A stretch of DNA of 64,000 nucleotides, taken from Candidatus Electrothrix scaldis. Its GTDB lineage: Bacteria > Desulfobacterota > Desulfobulbia > Desulfobulbales > Desulfobulbaceae. Below, piece by piece: positions 42,257 to 50,974 of the stretch. The stretch covers positions 1,627,501 through 1,691,500 of the forward strand of contig CP138355.1 in the NCBI GenBank assembly GCA_033584155.1, written 5' to 3'. Both the position numbers and the translations under genes were made by a program. The notes under the pieces were generated by a model. The model saw only the letters and a list, made by a program, of their open reading frames with translations, was not told the origin of the DNA and did no database searches. Within the stretch, counting starts at the first letter, position 1. Every line of letters begins with the position of its first letter.

Positions 42257-43323
42257 TGCGGAAAACAGGAGTGTATAGAGATAATCTCTTTTTGGAGCAT
42301 CAGACCAGTAGCAGCCACCCGGACTCACCGGATCGCTTGCGGATTATTTATGAGGTCCTGGATAATGGTCACACCGCAGACAATTTTATTTTTCCCGATT
42401 TTAAACCGGTCTCGGATGAGATTCTCCATATGAATCATTCTCCGATCATGGTGGATCGGGTAGCATCAACAAAGGGCCGGGGGATTGAGTATCTGGATTC
42501 TGATACCCAGACCTCAGCCCGTTCCTATGAAGCAGCCTGTCTTGCTGCCGGTGCCCTGATAGACGGTATTGCCCGTATTAACCGAGGGGAGCTGGATAAT
42601 GCCTTTTGTCTGGTGCGTCCTCCAGGGCATCACGCAGAGTGGGGTGAGTCTGGTGGCTTCTGTCTCTTTAATAATGTGGCAATAGCTGCGCGCTGGGCCA
42701 TGCAGGAGCTTGGGATGCAGCGTATCCTGATTTTGGATTGGGATCTGCATCACGGTAACGGCACCCAGAATAGTTTTTATGATAGCGATAAGGTGCTGTA
42801 TCTCTCCAGTCATCAATATCCTTTTTTTCCGGGCACCGGGGCTTTTCCAGAGATAGGGAATGGCGATGGGGAAGGATTTACTTTTAATATCCCGCTTGCC
42901 GGTGGGGAAGGGGATATGGAGTTCGCTCGGATCGTGAATGAATTGGTCGTTCCTCTAGCCCGAGCGTACCAGCCTGAACTGATTTTGATCTCCTGCGGTT
43001 TTGACATACATAGTGATGATCCCTTAGGGGGAATGAAGGTTACATCGGCTGGTTTTGCCTGGATGACCCGCCAGCTGATCGCTGTGGCTGAGGAAGTCTG
43101 TCAGGGAAAGATATTATTTACTCTGGAAGGAGGATATGATCTGGGAGCCATGCGGGATGGAAGTCTTGCTGTATTGGCAGAACTGTGTGGAAAGGAACTC
43201 AGGTGCGGATACCATACGAATCTTTCCGATGAGGAGGCAGCCCAGTTTGCCTCTTCAGCAGTGCCCTGTCAGGCTTTGGATTATATTCTTGATATTGTCA
43301 GGCATTACTGGGAAAAGATCTAG
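42256..43323 (+). CDS. Histone deacetylase-superfamily amidohydrolase
   Basis: The 355-residue protein is an arginase/deacetylase-fold amidohydrolase with zinc site DWDLHHGNGT, CGFDIHSDDPLGG and the GGYDLGAM motif. PPGHHAEW supplies the catalytic His pair. Bacterial members deacetylate acetylpolyamines, acetoin-pathway intermediates or unknown amides. A GTG at 42253 is an alternative start. Cotranscribed with the folate gene, but a functional link is unclear. Confidence 0.88.
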   Translation: MRKTGVYRDNLFLEHQTSSSHPDSPDRLRIIYEVLDNGHTADNFIFPDFKPVSDEILHMNHSPIMVDRVASTKGRGIEYLDSDTQTSARSYEAACLAAGALIDGIARINRGELDNAFCLVRPPGHHAEWGESGGFCLFNNVAIAARWAMQELGMQRILILDWDLHHGNGTQNSFYDSDKVLYLSSHQYPFFPGTGAFPEIGNGDGEGFTFNIPLAGGEGDMEFARIVNELVVPLARAYQPELILISCGFDIHSDDPLGGMKVTSAGFAWMTRQLIAVAEEVCQGKILFTLEGGYDLGAMRDGSLAVLAELCGKELRCGYHTNLSDEEAAQFASSAVPCQALDYILDIVRHYWEKI

Positions 43324-43329
43324 CTTTCA

Positions 43330-43357
43330 TCTCGGCCTCTCGGGCCGAGATAATAAA
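43330..43357 (+). repeat. Hairpin repeat ending in GATAATAAA (copy 2)
   Basis: TCTCGGCC-TCTC-GGGCCGAGA followed by TAATAAA, nearly identical to 10597-10625. Outer CTTTCA/TGAAAG arms extend the stem. Confidence 0.65.
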
Positions 43358-43429
43358 GCCTGAAAGTGAACTTGGCCGGTTTTATTTTGCCGACCACGTT
43401 CATATAAAACGTACTATATAACGTATGAG

Positions 43430-43453
43430 AAAGGGGACGTTCAGTCCCCTTTT
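43430..43453 (+). terminator. Intrinsic terminator after the deacetylase-like gene
   Basis: AAAGGGGAC and GTCCCCTTTT form a hairpin with a GTTCA loop ending in a T-run. Confidence 0.75.
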
Positions 43454-43671
43454 GCTTTGCTCCTTCCTTGCTTTTTCGCTCTATCTTTCTTCCTCCGTAC
43501 TTTGCCTTGGATGAACCAGGTATTCGACAGCTCTTCTTGTCGAGTTTTTCTGGATTGATCGTATCTTTCTGATGTCACATGTATATTTTTTACCCATTTT
43601 CAAATGGAGAAAGATAATAATTTATTTCAAGGGTAACGAGCTTGTTTCTTTCGTTATATGAACTTTTTTTC

Positions 43672-43700
43672 TTGACGCTTGCTGGCAGTGTGGGTATATT
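43672..43700 (+). promoter_or_regulatory. Sigma-70 promoter upstream of the riboswitch
   Basis: TTGACG at 43672-43677, a spacer of exactly 17 bases, then TATATT at 43695-43700. This is close to the consensus and drives a leader of about 240 bases to the ORF at 43950. Confidence 0.75.
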
Positions 43701-43847
43701 TTATACATCAAGGGTGAGGAAGAAAAAGAGTCCGAGAGAAAAAATCATAACCGGACATAATCATGCACCTCGCCTGTCTTTCATCATAACAATGAGGCAA
43801 CGAACGCTTTAAGCGGTTGCCCAGCTTTTCTGGTTGGCACCAGAAAG

Positions 43848-43923
43848 TTGATAAAGCCACAGCCGTCGTGAGACGGTGTCGGAAAGCCACGGGTCTCCAG
43901 CGGGGAGATAGCCGGGTCGCCTA
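43848..43923 (+). ncRNA. GEMM-like cyclic dinucleotide riboswitch
   Basis: A structured leader between the promoter and the 59-codon ORF. GCCGTC-GTGA-GACGGT is a hairpin capped by a GNRA tetraloop, as in GEMM-I. It is followed by GGAAAGCCACGGGTCTCC, a second hairpin with GGGGAGATAGCCGGG, and then a G/C-rich closing segment. The AAAGCC and ACGGGTCT...AGATAGCCGGG elements match the class that binds c-di-GMP or 3',3'-cGAMP. The segment preceding the first hairpin (GATAAAGCC) has A where Vc2 has G20, compatible with the GEMM-Ib (cGAMP) variant, though this alignment is by eye. Two other hairpins lie just upstream (43805-43847). Confidence 0.65.
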
Positions 43924-43949
43924 CTTTTCCCCCTTACCAGGAGGTTGTT

Positions 43950-44129
43950 ATGAACACTCCACACATATTTTCCACTTGTATTGCCCGTATTATTGATTGG
44001 TCAATACGTCTTTTGAGACGCTTTCGTTCATATGGAAGCGGACATTTTTCTTCAGAATTAGTTCCAGCTTTTACTTTTCATCAGGGCAAGCCTGTTCCTG
44101 TTCGTGTTGATATCAGAAGGTTCCGGTAA
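43950..44129 (+). CDS. 59-residue protein controlled by the GEMM-like riboswitch
   Basis: ATG at 43950 has AGGAGG seven bases upstream, directly after the riboswitch. The product is basic, with a hydrophobic/amphipathic helix (STCIARIIDWSIRLLRRF, about residues 8-25) followed by a C-terminal part with VPVRVDIRRFR. It has no recognisable family. The combination of promoter, riboswitch, strong ribosome-binding site and small ORF argues that it is translated, despite its length. It lies 128 bases before the PIN-domain gene. Confidence 0.6.
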   Translation: MNTPHIFSTCIARIIDWSIRLLRRFRSYGSGHFSSELVPAFTFHQGKPVPVRVDIRRFR

Positions 44130-44257
44130 GATTTTTAGAGAAGTTTTCTGAAAATAATTCCGGTAGGTGACCTGCTTCAGGATGAGGATCCTGATGAACG
44201 CAACCCGTCTGCGTAGCCCTTGTGTAGCTGGGGAAAGAGAGAGTGAAGAGGTAATAT

Positions 44258-44686
44258 ATGAATGTCTATTTGGATAATTGTTGTATGAACAGGCTGTTCG
44301 ATGATCAGTCAGACCGCCGTATCCGTTTTGAATCCGAGGCTGTGAAATTGATTCTGTCGCTTTGTGAACAGCGGCGTTGGCATAATGTTGCCCAGTTTGA
44401 GATAGATCAGATTCCTGATGAGGACAGAAGGAAGAAAATGCAATTGCTTTGTAAGCAGTCCGATGATGTCATCACCATAGACAGGAGTATATCGGCACGG
44501 GCAAAGGAATTGGAGAAAAAAGGAATCCAGGCCTTTGATGCGCTGCATCTGGCCTGTGCAGAGGATGGTGCCGATGTCTTTTTGACTGTAGATGATAAGC
44601 TGCTCAAGCAGGCATTGCGCATTGAGGATTTGAAGGTGCCGGTCAACAACCCGGTTGTATGGCTTATAACAGAGGAATTGGTATGA
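44258..44686 (+). CDS. PIN-domain protein
   Basis: A 142-residue PIN-like nuclease. NVYLDNCCMNR supplies the first Asp, AFDALHLACAEDGADVFLTVDD the remaining acidic residues. This group often starts with (V/L)YLDNCC and occurs with a small partner gene. The partner here is probably the downstream 62-residue protein, which overlaps by 4 bp. Confidence 0.75.
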   Translation: MNVYLDNCCMNRLFDDQSDRRIRFESEAVKLILSLCEQRRWHNVAQFEIDQIPDEDRRKKMQLLCKQSDDVITIDRSISARAKELEKKGIQAFDALHLACAEDGADVFLTVDDKLLKQALRIEDLKVPVNNPVVWLITEELV

Positions 44687-44871
44687 AGATAGTAGATGGC
44701 AAAGTACAATGGGCAGGACTTGAGGCTGGCTGTAGAAATATCAGTACGATAGAATTAATTCGTTATCTCCAGAAAGTTGACAGTGGTTCCGGGGATTATG
44801 TACAGGATCGGCAGGAATGGCAACAGGAGTACACTGTTGATATGCTGCTTGGTGCTGTCGATCAAGGGTAG
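44683..44871 (+). CDS. Small protein coupled to the PIN-domain gene
   Basis: The 62-residue product (MKIVDGKVQWAGLEAGCRN start) overlaps the PIN gene by ATGA. It is acidic toward the C-terminus and likely an antitoxin or regulator, but it has no family I recognise. The frame is open upstream to 44659, but ATG at 44683 is the coupled start. A strong terminator follows. Confidence 0.6.
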   Translation: MKIVDGKVQWAGLEAGCRNISTIELIRYLQKVDSGSGDYVQDRQEWQQEYTVDMLLGAVDQG

Positions 44872-44879
44872 GAGGAAGG

Positions 44880-44920
44880 GGCCGCCTCCTGTACCGTGTA
44901 GCAGGAGGCGGTCTTTTTTT
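44880..44920 (+). terminator. Intrinsic terminator after the PIN gene pair
   Basis: GCCGCCTCCTG pairs with CAGGAGGCGG, followed by TTTTTTT. Confidence 0.93.
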
Positions 44921-44994
44921 GCCTCACTCCCCATCTCTTCTCATCCTTCCTGATTTTCGAATCTTCTCCTTTATCCTCTCTTTGCTCTGAATTC

Positions 44995-45288
44995 TCATCG
45001 AAAACTTAATGTCTTGCTTGACATAGGGACTGTAACGGTTTTAAATCTTTCTTTTTTCATTAGAACATCCCTGTCGTCCTGAGCAACCGGCTCCAGCGGA
45101 TCATCATAGCGGAGCACGGAATTACGGAGTTCCTCCAGGACGCTCTGTGGTTTATTGGGCAATGGAGATATTTTCAGGACCGGTTTTCCGTGATCTGTGA
45201 TGATCAGCTCCTCACCTTTTTCCTGTATTTCCCCGAAATACTTGAGTGCCTGGAGCTTAAAGCCTGATTTTGAAATCTTTTCGGGCAT
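44995..45288 (-). CDS. Orphan Phd/YefM-type antitoxin
   Basis: A 97-residue Phd-type antitoxin: SKSGFKLQALKYFGEIQEKGEELIITDHGKPVLKISP, followed by VLEELRNSVLRYDDPLEPVAQDDRDVL, the usual C-terminus. About 20 further residues (from MKKERF on) are not part of the family. No VapC-like gene follows where the toxin should start, so the toxin was probably deleted and the C-terminus extended into unrelated DNA. Confidence 0.75.
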   Translation of the reverse strand: MPEKISKSGFKLQALKYFGEIQEKGEELIITDHGKPVLKISPLPNKPQSVLEELRNSVLRYDDPLEPVAQDDRDVLMKKERFKTVTVPMSSKTLSFR

Positions 45289-45892: not shown

Positions 45893-47188
45893 ATGAAACG
45901 CATAATAGATAGTGTTCGACGTAACCTTTTTAATGCAAAAGGATATTTTCTTTTTGCATTGCTGCTTATTTTTTGGGGTGGACAAGAAAGTTTTGCCGCA
46001 GGATGGGTAGATGTAAACGTTGGCGTAACTGTATCTCCTTCGCCTGTCACAGTCGGTAAAAACTTTGACGTTTCTTTCAGTCTGAAGGAATACAAAGGAG
46101 AAAGTAAAACATTCGAATATGTTCAGCTATGGATACAGGATGGACGTGGCAACGACCTGTTTGATGCTGCAACCTGGAACAGTGTGTCTTTTTCACCTTG
46201 GCAGCAGAAAAGTTTTTCCACCACTACTTTTCTTGATCCTGCTTGGGGGAGAAAACCTGGGGCATATCGTGCGATAGTCCGGGGTAAGGTGGCTGGTGAT
46301 GTTCCTTTTAACTTCGGGATTATCAGTGGCAGCGGAGCTGTGAATCCTCGGAGCTTTTCTGCTGCTCCTATAATCGCCCAAGTGCCTATGTCCGGCCCTC
46401 CTGGGACTACCTTTACTCAGTGGGGAGAGGGATTCACTGCTAACAGTACAGCAAGTCTGCACGTAAAGAAGCCTGATGGGACCGAGTACGATCCTCAGCC
46501 GCTTGGGATGGACAGTATTGGTCATTTTGAAGTTCCCTATACAGCACCGATGGATAAGGAACCGGGGCAGTACACTTGGTGGGTGATTGATGGTCCGACC
46601 GGAATTTCCAGTAACCAGGTAACCTATACGATTGAAGAACCTCCTGTCAATCCTGCTATTGCGCAGTCTCCCATGTCCGGTCCTCCGGGCACGACCTTTA
46701 CCCAATGGGGTACCGGCTTTACGCCGAACAGTACAGCAAGTCTGCATGTAAAGAAACCTGATGGAACTGAATACGATCCTCAGCAGCTTGGAATGGACAG
46801 TATTGGTCATTTTGAAATTCCGTATCCGTCTCCGATGGACAAGGCGCCGGGACAGTACACTTGGTGGGTGGTTGACGGCCCGACGGGAATTTCCAGTAAT
46901 CAGGTGACGTATACTATCGAGCAGCCGCCGGTGAATCCGACAATCGCTCAGTCACCGATGTCAGGCGTTCCCGGCACGACCTTTACGCAGTGGGGCACCG
47001 GCTTTACGCCGAACAGTACAGCAAGTCTGCATGTAAAGAAACCTGATGGAACAGAGTACGATCCTCAGCAGCTTGAAATGGATAGTACCGGTCATTTCGA
47101 AGTTCCGTATCCGTCTCCGATGGACAAGGAACCTGGGCAGTACACTTGGTGGGTGGTTGATGGCCCGACGGGAATTTCCAGTAATTAG
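45893..47188 (+). CDS. N-terminal part of a giant secreted repeat protein, ending at a premature TAG
   Basis: A 431-codon piece: signal peptide (about residues 18-37), a beta-sandwich domain (about 40-155), then the first three 95-residue repeats starting at 46367, 46652 and 46937. The stop TAG at 47186-47188 occupies the place where the other repeats have CAG (SSNQVTY), so a single C-to-T change cuts the protein. Without it the frame continues to 50974. Whether the stop is real, a sequencing error in a repeat or decoded is unknown. Confidence 0.8.
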   Translation: MKRIIDSVRRNLFNAKGYFLFALLLIFWGGQESFAAGWVDVNVGVTVSPSPVTVGKNFDVSFSLKEYKGESKTFEYVQLWIQDGRGNDLFDAATWNSVSFSPWQQKSFSTTTFLDPAWGRKPGAYRAIVRGKVAGDVPFNFGIISGSGAVNPRSFSAAPIIAQVPMSGPPGTTFTQWGEGFTANSTASLHVKKPDGTEYDPQPLGMDSIGHFEVPYTAPMDKEPGQYTWWVIDGPTGISSNQVTYTIEEPPVNPAIAQSPMSGPPGTTFTQWGTGFTPNSTASLHVKKPDGTEYDPQQLGMDSIGHFEIPYPSPMDKAPGQYTWWVVDGPTGISSNQVTYTIEQPPVNPTIAQSPMSGVPGTTFTQWGTGFTPNSTASLHVKKPDGTEYDPQQLEMDSTGHFEVPYPSPMDKEPGQYTWWVVDGPTGISSN

Positions 47189-48064
47189 GTGACGTATACT
47201 ATCGAGCAGCCGCCGGTGAATCCGACAATCGCTCAGTCACCGATGTCAGGCGTTCCCGGCACGACCTTTACGCAGTGGGGCACCGGCTTTACGCCGAACA
47301 GTACAGCAAGTCTGCATGTAAAGAAACCTGATGGAACAGAGTACGATCCTCAGCAGCTTGAAATGGATAGTACCGGTCATTTCGAAGTTCCGTATCCGTC
47401 TCCGATGGACAAGGAGCCGGGACAGTACACTTGGTGGGTGGTTGATGGTCCGACGGGTATTTCCAGTAATCAGGTGACGTATACTATCGAGCAGCCGCCA
47501 GTGAATCCGGCAATTGCTCAGTCACCGATGTCAGGCGTTCCCGGTACGACCTTTACGCAATGGGGTACCGGCTTTACGCCGAACAGTACAGCAACCCTGC
47601 ATTTCAAAAAGCCTGATGGTACGGAGTATCCGACGCAGCAGCAGGCGATGGATAGTACAGGTCATTTTGAGACGCAGTATACCGCTCCGACAGATAAAGA
47701 ACCTGGGCAGTATATCTGGTGGGCTGTTGACGGCCCGACAGGTACTTCCAGTAATCAGGTGACCTATACCATCGAGCAGCCTTCTTCTAATCCGACTGTT
47801 GCTCAAACACCAATGTTTGGCAAGCCAGGGACGATTTTTAAACAGTGGGGAACTGGCTTCACGCCGAACAGTACGGCAACATTGCATATTCAAAAGCCGG
47901 ATGGTACCGAATATCAACCTGATATCATGCAAATTGATGGGGAAGGAAATTTTGTTACCTCTTATACGGTCCCTGCTGATAAACCTGTTGGATTATATAC
48001 TTGGTGGGTTATTGATGATCATTTAAACGTTAGCAGCAACCAAGTTGTATATTCAATCAGTTCG
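46367..48064 (+). repeat. Six tandem 285-bp coding repeats
   Basis: Units start at 46367, 46652, 46937, 47222, 47507 and 47792, always exactly 285 bp apart. Each encodes 95 residues with (I/V)AQxPMSGxPGTTFTQWGxGFTxNSTA and GQYTWWVxDG. Units 3 and 4 are almost identical, implying recent duplication or gene conversion, while unit 6 is the most divergent and slightly shorter. Confidence 0.95.
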
Positions 48065-50974
48065 GAGTCTCAAGAAATAGCAGACATTGAAGTGAGTATC
48101 GTAGAAAGTAAATCAGTGTACACCGAAGGAGATTTTCTTAGCTACAATATTTACATAAAAAATAATGGGGAGGATTTTGCTTCTGACGTAATTATTGATG
48201 TCAATCATACTGAAGGATACAGGAGTATTGATAAACAATGGGAATGCTTAGATCATGACTTGTCGATAAATAACGATACTGCCTGCGAGAGATTAGAACT
48301 AACTAGCAATTCGGCAAAATTCACAGCAAATATTCCTTCAGGGGAGTATGTTCTTGTCAGAGTGTCTGGTTATTCTGAATCAGGATTTGGCATGATCAAG
48401 CTTACAGCAGAAGCACATGGCGCAATAGAGGACCCAGATCAAGAGAACAATAGAGCTATTTCTATTCTACAGACACAGCTACCTGGTTTACCACGTAATC
48501 ATGCTACTGAGCTACGATTGTTATCTTGGGGTGGAGTTGCAGCAGATACGGTTGTTCTAACCCACGGTTTGCAAGACAGTCCTTGTTTCGCCTCTGAACT
48601 CTGGACAGGATCAAAGAGTGAGCCTGCTCAGGCAGGTTATCTGATTAAAGAGGCAATAAAAAATACAGACAAGCATATAAATATTTATCAATTCTTTTGG
48701 GAAGGAGCCTGTCAGGAACATTTAGATGTAGTGGGTATCCCAAATACTGGGATATCGATAGGGCGAACCCCATACAATATGGCTTATATACTGGCACGGC
48801 AAAACGTGTATTTTGCCGCCCAGCAGCTCGCTAAACAGCTCTATGATGCGCTTGGCCCAAATTACGATAAAAAGATCCACTTTATAGGTCACTCTCTCGG
48901 TACAGCGGTTAATGCGTATGCCGCCGATATTTTTTTGAATAAAGAATTGAATGTCAACACAGCGCAGGTAACAATTCTTGATCACCCAAATCATATAGGT
49001 AAAATAGCCTTTTTTATTAAGGATGATGAAACATCTGAAAGGATATGGGGATTCGATGAGAACTTCTTTGCCAATGTTCTACCGTTCTACCGTCAGGGAT
49101 TAAAATTATATGTTGACAACTATCATTCCGCTAAATCGGAAAACAACAAATTGGTATCGGCTGGTGTCGGAACCGATGTAACAGGAGATGTTTTTAATCA
49201 TGCTCCACTTATAGATCCGCATGAAGTCGGAGACACATTTCTTCCGGGAGAAGCTGCTGGTGGTTTTATAGATAATGATCATTCAGGTGTTCATCAATGG
49301 TATCGTTGGACTATCTCGCCAAAGGACCAAGAGAATTTTCAAGGAGATTCGGTATGTCCTGATAATAAATGGAACGGAGAACCTGGATATTGGATAGGAT
49401 ATAATTGGCGAGGATTAAATAATACTCTTAATCCTTGCCCAGAACGATGGGGAGGTTGGAAGGAAAGCGTTCTGATTAGTGATCCTGCTGATTTTCCTTG
49501 GCCAAACGGAAATAATGCCAGTGCAACCAATAGCACGGATGTCGAGACATCAAAGAGCAATCCGGTTGGATGCAGTGCTCCTTCCGGTAACTTCATCGCC
49601 ACAGTTTGTAGTGAACCCGTCTCTTCTGCTTCGACAGCCAAGGTCGCATCATATGCAGCAAGCCAAGTGCAATCATTGGACGAAGAACCTGAAATTCCCA
49701 AATCATACATTGAGTTTGAGGTTAGCGTTCCCGAGTTCCTCCGCTATATCAGCTTTGACTACAGCTTCAGCAATATCGGTGACGGTGATTATGTCTATGT
49801 TTTCTTGGATGGAAATGTTGTCTGGAAAATGGGTGGTGAAGCCTTGAGTGCAGGCGAGACCGTTTCCTCGGATCTGATTCCTGTTCGCTCTGAAACGGGC
49901 CAGAAAAAGTTGATTATCGCTCTCTACGGAGTAGGCGAGCAGAACGCTCAGTTTAGCTTAGATAACTTTAAGTTCACCACAGCCTTAGATACAGATAACG
50001 ATGGATATGCCGATGACGAGGACGCATTTCCAGATGATCCTGTTGAATGGGAAGATACCGACGAAGACGGCATCGGCAACAACGCTGATCTGGACGACGA
50101 CAATGATGGCTTTCTGGACACCGCCGATGCCTTCCCACTTGATCCCAACGAAAATTTAGACACTGACGGCGACGGCATTGGTGATAATGCCGACCTCGAC
50201 GACGGAATGTATCCTGACCTCGCTATGATCACCTCTTCATCCAACAAAGGGGGGCTTATGCCGGGAGAAAGTTTTACCTACTCCTCCACCGTGAAGAACA
50301 AGGGGACAGGAAGGGCGTCAGTTTCAATGCTTCGTTATTATCTTTCTTCTGATTCGACAATCGATAGTAGTGATACAATGATAGGGAGCAGGGACGTTCC
50401 TACGATCAACTCCGGCAACACCTCATGGGGATATATTAACCTGAACGCCCCGACAGACGTTGGTACCTATTGGGTCGGCAGTTGTGTTGATACCATCAGC
50501 GGTGAAAGCAGTACGACCAATAATTGCAGTTCCGGGTTCCGAATTGTCGTTGCAACCCAGCTGCCGGATCTGATTGTCTCCAGCCTCAGTGTTCCTTCAT
50601 CAGTAGAGGCGGGAAAATCCTTCAGCACGACTGCCCAATTCAAAAATCAAGGTAATCTGGACGCAACTTCGACAACAGCGAGTTGGTACTATATGGATAT
50701 CGCGGCCCAGACAACTTCCGACGTGATTCATGAGGAGGAGATCCGGGACTTGGCCGTCAACCAGACCATATCCCGCACGACCAGTCTCAGGGCTCCCTGC
50801 AAAGATGGGGATTATTTCCTCTCAACCTGCATTAACTCGGGTTGGAATGTGGAACAGGGCGGGAATAACAACTGTCAGCTCAAAAGCCTGACTATAACCC
50901 CGGCAACGGGCATTTGCAGCGAAGATGGGTCGTTTTCCGCTCTTCCTGCGATTCTCTATCTGCTGCTGAAGTAA
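47189..50974 (+). CDS. C-terminal part of the giant repeat protein: lipase-like domain, calcium repeats, CARDB-like domains
   Basis: The 1261 codons continue the frame after the TAG. They contain three more repeats, a CARDB-like sandwich (about residues 290-430), and an alpha/beta-hydrolase/lipase-like domain with oxyanion-region VVLTHGLQDSP and nucleophile motif GHSLG (about residue 566). The domain has plausible acid (DHPNH) and base (NDHSGVHQWY) residues. Next come thrombospondin type 3-like Ca-binding repeats (DTDNDGYADDEDAFP; DTDGDGIGDNADLDD), two CARDB-like domains and a hydrophobic tail ending LLLK. The protein is probably surface-displayed; substrate unknown. Confidence 0.8.
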   Translation: MTYTIEQPPVNPTIAQSPMSGVPGTTFTQWGTGFTPNSTASLHVKKPDGTEYDPQQLEMDSTGHFEVPYPSPMDKEPGQYTWWVVDGPTGISSNQVTYTIEQPPVNPAIAQSPMSGVPGTTFTQWGTGFTPNSTATLHFKKPDGTEYPTQQQAMDSTGHFETQYTAPTDKEPGQYIWWAVDGPTGTSSNQVTYTIEQPSSNPTVAQTPMFGKPGTIFKQWGTGFTPNSTATLHIQKPDGTEYQPDIMQIDGEGNFVTSYTVPADKPVGLYTWWVIDDHLNVSSNQVVYSISSESQEIADIEVSIVESKSVYTEGDFLSYNIYIKNNGEDFASDVIIDVNHTEGYRSIDKQWECLDHDLSINNDTACERLELTSNSAKFTANIPSGEYVLVRVSGYSESGFGMIKLTAEAHGAIEDPDQENNRAISILQTQLPGLPRNHATELRLLSWGGVAADTVVLTHGLQDSPCFASELWTGSKSEPAQAGYLIKEAIKNTDKHINIYQFFWEGACQEHLDVVGIPNTGISIGRTPYNMAYILARQNVYFAAQQLAKQLYDALGPNYDKKIHFIGHSLGTAVNAYAADIFLNKELNVNTAQVTILDHPNHIGKIAFFIKDDETSERIWGFDENFFANVLPFYRQGLKLYVDNYHSAKSENNKLVSAGVGTDVTGDVFNHAPLIDPHEVGDTFLPGEAAGGFIDNDHSGVHQWYRWTISPKDQENFQGDSVCPDNKWNGEPGYWIGYNWRGLNNTLNPCPERWGGWKESVLISDPADFPWPNGNNASATNSTDVETSKSNPVGCSAPSGNFIATVCSEPVSSASTAKVASYAASQVQSLDEEPEIPKSYIEFEVSVPEFLRYISFDYSFSNIGDGDYVYVFLDGNVVWKMGGEALSAGETVSSDLIPVRSETGQKKLIIALYGVGEQNAQFSLDNFKFTTALDTDNDGYADDEDAFPDDPVEWEDTDEDGIGNNADLDDDNDGFLDTADAFPLDPNENLDTDGDGIGDNADLDDGMYPDLAMITSSSNKGGLMPGESFTYSSTVKNKGTGRASVSMLRYYLSSDSTIDSSDTMIGSRDVPTINSGNTSWGYINLNAPTDVGTYWVGSCVDTISGESSTTNNCSSGFRIVVATQLPDLIVSSLSVPSSVEAGKSFSTTAQFKNQGNLDATSTTASWYYMDIAAQTTSDVIHEEEIRDLAVNQTISRTTSLRAPCKDGDYFLSTCINSGWNVEQGGNNNCQLKSLTITPATGICSEDGSFSALPAILYLLLK

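Follow-up and report, generated by a model that had tools for sequence, protein, structure and literature searches.

A c-di-GMP-I (GEMM-I) riboswitch of canonical ligand genotype stands ahead of a 59-codon ORF (ORF59) and a PIN-domain gene in Candidatus Electrothrix scaldis, and the reading we favour, with moderate confidence, is that it controls translation of the short leader ORF and, through this ORF, the PIN-domain (VapC-like) operon. The unit lies in a stretch of 64,000 nucleotides (the window; contig CP138355.1, positions 1,627,501 to 1,691,500), and its features are collected in Table 1. What is new is a hairpin arm just upstream of the aptamer that can pair instead with the SD (ribosome-binding) region, forming a predicted long-range helix, P0, that covaries across paralogues. 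The aptamer, the promoter, the conservation of the unit and P0 rest on sequence comparison, while the direction of the switch, which is translational and probably OFF with c-di-GMP, is drawn from folding models.

Table 1 Features of the riboswitch unit in window coordinates
Feature	Position	Strand	Remarks
Sigma-70-type promoter TTGACG-17-TATATT	43672..43700	+	Consensus; hexamers and spacing kept in 7/7 syntenic loci
Leader hairpin GGCAAC..GTTGCC	43796..43821	+	Some but not all syntenic loci have a perfect repeat close to the arm
Switching hairpin H	43825..43847	+	5' arm CTTTTCTGGT (43825-43834), 3' arm CCAGAAAG (43840-43847)
P1 5' strand AAAGT	43844..43848	+	Shared with 3' arm of H; nearly invariant
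c-di-GMP-I (GEMM-I) aptamer	43846..43924	+	RF01051, 54.5 bits; G20 = 43856, A47 = 43883, C92 = 43920
P1 3' strand ACTTT	43923..43927	+	Pairs in P1
SD region ACCAGGAGG	43936..43944	+	Can pair with 5' arm of H (predicted helix P0); covariation across paralogues
ORF59, putative translated leader or small basic protein	43950..44129	+	59 codons; C-terminus QGKPVPVRVDIRRFR
PIN-domain protein, 142 aa	44258..44686	+	PF01850, 26.3 bits (cut-off 23.6); next gene of probable operon
62-aa ORF MKIVDGKVQWAG..	44683..44871	+	Start overlaps PIN stop codon; start region conserved in 7 loci

Comparison of the whole window with all Rfam families gave a significant covariance match to RF01051 (gathering threshold 35, E = 6.7e-8), which bears out the GEMM-like riboswitch proposed in an earlier, sequence-only reading of this DNA. 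The GNRA-capped hairpin and GEMM elements described there are also present, the hairpin with a GUGA tetraloop at 43863-43876 inside the aptamer region. In Vc2 numbering the ligand contacts G20, A47 and C92 form the canonical c-di-GMP-I genotype; Vc2 position 20 corresponds to RF01051 model position 11, and its base is G in both Rfam alignments. The A that the sequence-only reading had suggested for this position was mistaken, and the 3',3'-cGAMP sensing that it had linked to that base, the mark of GEMM-Ib riboswitches, finds no support in the genotype of the window copy. The two pairs that follow G20 are both C-G. The 21-46 pair, where C-G replaces the usual G-C, is a compensated change, and because of it the AAAGCC that stands in place of AAGGCA before the hairpin may look unusual. 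By these comparisons the window RNA is a new, well-conserved member of the known c-di-GMP-I riboswitch class, with ligand binding predicted. The c-di-GMP-I-GGC variant (RF03167) was rejected for the window copy, which scores 57.1 bits against a cut-off of 59 and has A at position 47 in place of the diagnostic G. Other weak Rfam matches between 43300 and 44900 (SR6 antitoxin, CRISPR repeat, snoRNAs, a Burkholderia sRNA and a microRNA) were far under cut-off and were taken as chance.

The unit as a whole (promoter, aptamer, SD, a short ORF of 59-77 codons, PIN gene and start of the 62-aa ORF) is syntenic in seven of the eight genus genomes, which we label G000 (the host) to G007; in the remaining one, G006 (69% complete), neither ORF59 nor the PIN gene was found at the cut-offs used. 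The orthologous unit of G004 lies on a contig of 4707 bases. Three promoter-like sites occur in 43300-45000 against 2.3 expected by chance, so that a consensus match alone is weak evidence. The near-consensus promoter noted earlier was nonetheless confirmed, since TTGAC-N18-TA(T/C)ATT is preserved at all seven syntenic loci despite a diverged spacer.

The PIN domain downstream is recognisable by family, and as one half of a type II toxin-antitoxin system it would need an antitoxin partner; searches of NCBIfam and PADLOC (E up to 0.1) gave no family for the neighbouring 59-aa or 62-aa product. With no recognisable antitoxin, we file the locus only as a PIN-domain operon and not as a type II toxin-antitoxin system (VapC/PIN), the 62-aa ORF being a possible partner of the PIN protein. 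Beside the operon, on the minus strand, a 97-aa protein (44995-45288) matches the PhdYeFM antitoxin family weakly, at 19.5 bits against a cut-off of 29.8. Farther on, a large repeat protein (45893-50974) consists of two same-frame ORFs of 431 and 1261 aa, split by one in-frame stop codon, with similar repeats of about 95 residues discernible by eye.

Riboswitches of this class are numerous throughout the genus. The host genome, a single contig of 5.09 Mb, holds 19 RF01051 matches, and the eight genus genomes together hold 146 (G000 19, G001 21, G002 10, G003 21, G004 27, G005 18, G006 9 and G007 21). At least one match was found in 41 of 59 sampled genomes of the family, with 0 to 25 per genome outside the genus. 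For comparison among paralogues we collected 126 distinct aptamer sites by sequence pattern, a false pattern match (L059) having been dropped before counting. Downstream of the aptamer, 108 of these sites have a motif resembling an SD and then a start codon, at a distance of 24-44 bases except for a single site at 72. Of the 108 first ORFs, 59 are complete with fewer than 100 codons, and 11 run off the fetched stretch. At six sites (L066, L078, L080, L096, L105 and L116) the linked ORF has a long N-terminal stretch ahead of a hydrophobic, signal-like segment, and some of these ORFs (L105, for example) resemble by eye the starts of stand-alone short ORFs elsewhere (M.SS.KVPAQGT..IGRLIS). Such shared starts after different copies suggest that the first codons may have been copied together with the riboswitch. 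At one locus of the host genome (L001:1236-1581, G000:C1:4046050-4046395) an Hcp gene (PF05638) is preceded by three tandem c-di-GMP-I aptamers. By eye, every one of them has behind it a segment seemingly complementary to the 3' part of the aptamer, and a T run; these aptamers pass the RF03167 cut-off although base 47 is A. A triple tandem c-di-GMP-I aptamer is known from Bacillus thuringiensis (PMC4759541).

The evidence for P0 comes from these paralogues. An arm resembling CTTTC(C/T)GG stands 5' of the aptamer at 98 of the 126 sites, with a perfect inverted repeat close upstream at 55 of the 98. It has two alternative partners, either CC(A/G)GAAAG at the 5' edge of the aptamer, which gives hairpin H, or the SD region, which gives P0; in the window the AGGAGG ribosome-binding site named earlier was indeed found, at 43939-43944, with the ATG following at 43950. 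Among 46 representatives of the 126 sites (from single-linkage clusters that are uneven, the largest holding 38 sites), cognate arm-SD duplexes reached -17.65 kcal/mol against -15.57 for permuted ones, and none of 2,000 permutations was as low. At the 92 sites with both motifs, one P0 pair covaries (T-A 44, C-G 28, T-G 12 and C-A 8), with a Fisher p of 9.6e-8 if kinship is ignored and of 0.005 over 28 of the 46 representatives.

An alignment made with MAFFT points the same way. It retains 31 of 40 prepared sequences, omitting eight with a longer arm-to-start-codon stretch (L008, L013, L015, L068, L094, L104, L046 and L053) as well as L119. In its 31 rows 92.7% of P0 cells are paired, compared with 45-69% for slid versions; UA is replaced by CG at one pair in seven rows, and doubly changed cells number 10 against 4.4 in shuffles, with one shuffle in 500 as high. 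Three P0 pairs are changed on both sides, a number reached by 76 of 500 shuffles and so not unusual. RNAalifold proposed P0 unprompted (alignment columns 4-10 with 142-148). P0 thus gives the SD an alternative pairing with covariation support, as expected for a translational riboswitch that masks the SD. For H, 95.6% of cells are paired and none is doubly changed, and its arms favour their cognate partners (-10.93 against -9.17 permuted, 0 of 2,000 as low). P1 showed no covariation (-5.34 for cognate strands against -5.56, with 1,689 of 2,000 permutations as low); its strands are nearly invariant, and covariation therefore cannot test it.

How these helices might act together is suggested by folding. 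Free, the window leader 43790-43961 has a minimum (-61.1) that contains H, and with the aptamer and P1 forced the minimum (-54.9) contains the arm-SD helix, a switch for which the ligand would have to pay 6-9 kcal/mol; only this longer segment shows it, SD accessibility in a shorter segment being 0.17 both ways. In the mechanism we propose, the 5' arm would pair with its own 3' arm in the absence of c-di-GMP, leaving the SD free. Binding of c-di-GMP would let the aptamer and P1 form; the AAAG in the 3' arm of H would then go into P1, and the 5' arm, now released, would pair with the SD, stopping translation of the short ORF. Lost leader translation could then lower expression of the PIN operon by polarity (for instance through Rho), as in riboswitch-uORF systems elsewhere, although the 128-base gap between ORF59 and the PIN gene could hold a separate PIN promoter, which counts against such coupling. 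The same riboswitch and SD-masking arm could in principle work in the opposite sense, with the ligand freeing the SD. Covariation cannot reveal direction, and related GEMM riboswitches are described as acting both ways (PMC9262584). The AAAG shared between P1 and the 3' arm of H argues against an ON switch, since a ligand-stabilised P1 should release the 5' arm onto the SD. Folding of 106 of the 126 sites with the aptamer and P1 forced leans likewise, mean SD accessibility going from 0.265 to 0.133; among changes greater than 0.05 it fell at 49 sites and rose at 10, the latter favouring ON. P0 already makes up the ligand-free minimum in the G004 orthologue (L022) and in some paralogues, which counts against the proposed mechanism. 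Taken together we regard an ON switch as unlikely and an OFF switch as the probable direction.

What the switch delivers is a second point on which readings differ, as the 59-residue product could itself be functional cargo, a lineage-specific basic micro-protein under c-di-GMP control. The ORF that had been reported earlier was confirmed, as was its lack of a known family: searches up to E = 1 in Pfam and up to E = 0.1 in NCBIfam and PADLOC gave none. A protein search of 57 relatives at E < 1e-4 returned only G000 and G005 (100%), G004 (69%), G007 (66%) and G003 (46%); a 17-residue match on a Legionella santicrucis contig and matches with E above 0.03, all outside the genus, were rejected as chance. 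In G001 and G002 the short ORF is recognised by position, its sequence barely alignable with ORF59, so that what recurs in seven of the eight genus genomes is a short frame at the same place. The frame is open in the six genomes compared and its length differences are multiples of three, which suggests that ORF59 is translated, with the proviso that these genomes are not independent; in a simulation without indels such a frame stayed open in 30, 23, 15 and 11% of cases at 20, 25, 35 and 45% substitution. The open frame is also what a micro-protein would show, and further points in its favour are the C-terminus, which is conserved among three species (pN/pS over the last 28 codons of 0.13 for G000-G004, 0.21 for G000-G007 and 0.33 for G004-G007), and a model with a helix and C-terminal beta hairpin, in which residues 41-50 have a mean pLDDT of 87. 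Constraint over the same 28 codons disappears in comparisons with G003 (0.59-0.72 in three pairs), and the model, built from a two-sequence alignment, has a mean pLDDT of 67.8 and a pTM of just 0.28. Over the whole ORF, pN/pS runs from 0.40 to 1.04 in 15 pairs from six genomes, and the same pairs give 0.11-0.22 for the PIN gene. Short ORFs after other riboswitch copies are similarly loose (0.47-1.06 in 12 hand-chosen pairs, compared with 0.23-0.54 in 12 such pairs of long ones; one pair, L099-L126, is saturated at synonymous sites). Terminator-like stems inside ORF59 (44007-44040) were discounted, the stretch 43300-45000 having three such stems where chance predicts 1.8. With its position kept and its protein weakly constrained, ORF59 is better described as a probable translated leader, and we hold a conserved micro-protein to be improbable though worth keeping in view. 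Of the riboswitch-controlled micro-protein put forward by the sequence-only reading, then, the riboswitch-led short ORF stands, and the conserved protein does so only in part, most of it being under little constraint. The PIN operon downstream and the SD-masking arm had no place in that earlier reading.

The identity of the signal is the third point, and here the paralogues differ from the window copy. Position 20 is A at three of the 126 sites (L011 in the host genome, L070 and L100), in L011 by the Rfam alignment as well, while a C at this position (L081) reflects a poorly fitting pattern match. Position 92 is U at six sites (L015 in the host genome, L068, L094, L104, L130 and L134), a natural G20/U92 genotype that the Rfam alignment also gives for L015 and L134; the letter at position 92 of L005 is uninformative, its aptamer end having been placed too early. 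The A20 aptamer of L011 (L011:1501-1581, minus strand, G000:C1:1800568-1800648) is a candidate cGAMP-type switch, and the 124-aa protein that follows it has a signal-like N-terminus. Of the U92 aptamers, the host copy lies at L015:1501-1580 (minus strand, G000:C1:3358177-3358256), those of L068, L094, L104 and L130 precede proteins of 122-124 aa with a signal-like N-terminus, and that of L134 precedes a 52-codon ORF. The host genome also has 17 GGDEF matches, and in the 13 where the key site is readable it is Asp in 12 and Thr in one (L159, G000:C1:879876-881147, minus strand). This protein reads GHHAGT, with Thr where Hypr enzymes have Ser, keeps the GGDEF motif and has NMK where NRR is usual; its copies in all eight genus genomes (L190-L197) have Thr and GGDEF, the G002 copy with one in-frame stop. 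A20 paralogues and a conserved Thr-variant enzyme are what speaks for reading the window riboswitch itself as a GEMM-Ib sensor of 3',3'-cGAMP. Set against the G20, A47 and C92 of the window copy, and the G20 of its orthologues in six genomes (G001 to G005 and G007), they leave that reading very improbable; the A20 and U92 paralogues and the Thr-variant protein mean instead that a second signal can be tested for at other sites of the genus. A broader picture, which we offer tentatively and consider doubtful, would have cable bacteria use a large RNA regulon for cyclic dinucleotides. In it, one copied cassette (switching hairpin, aptamer, SD and first codons) would have been placed ahead of secreted proteins, of short leader ORFs and of a PIN nuclease operon and would have come to serve more than one signal, with G20/C92, A20 and U92 aptamers and a genus-wide Thr-variant GGDEF protein that may make cGAMP.

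Cable bacteria, to which this genus belongs, are hard to grow, and to our knowledge their gene regulation is largely unknown; in the openly licensed full-text literature we found no paper on a riboswitch-c-di-GMP regulon in cable bacteria or Electrothrix. With 9 to 27 riboswitches per genome and a platform that can be read from sequence, the aptamers point directly to a set of genes that may be controlled by c-di-GMP. P0 makes a testable prediction, namely that mutations in the arm and in the SD should cancel each other. If the leader-ORF reading is true, c-di-GMP signalling would reach a nuclease-like operon via translation of a short ORF.

Compared with known systems, the window riboswitch shares with RF01051 c-di-GMP-I RNAs the aptamer fold, the GNRA tetraloop, the three ligand contacts and a location 5' of an ORF, and departs from them in its swapped 21-46 pair and in having, directly before the aptamer, a hairpin with an arm that covaries with the SD. 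The Geobacter GEMM-Ib cGAMP riboswitches belong to the same riboswitch class and also occur in many copies per genome (17 GEMM-I copies in G. sulfurreducens, according to PMC6456294), but the window copy has G rather than A at position 20. The Geobacter pilM GEMM switch, as characterised in PMC9262584, is a transcriptional ON switch, from which the SD-masking arm sets the window unit apart. In E. coli the topAI-yjhQ toxin-antitoxin operon is, like the PIN operon, preceded by a short ORF, toiL, and is under translational and Rho-dependent control; as PMC12121999 presents it, toiL works without a riboswitch and senses ribosome stalling. The B12 riboswitch of M. tuberculosis ppe2, on the account given in PMC11260477, is a translational OFF switch acting on a short leader ORF that is translated ahead of the gene. 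Ligand, aptamer and host differ, but the window unit would likewise have a riboswitch governing a short leader ORF in the OFF direction, with a predicted coupling between this leader and the PIN gene.
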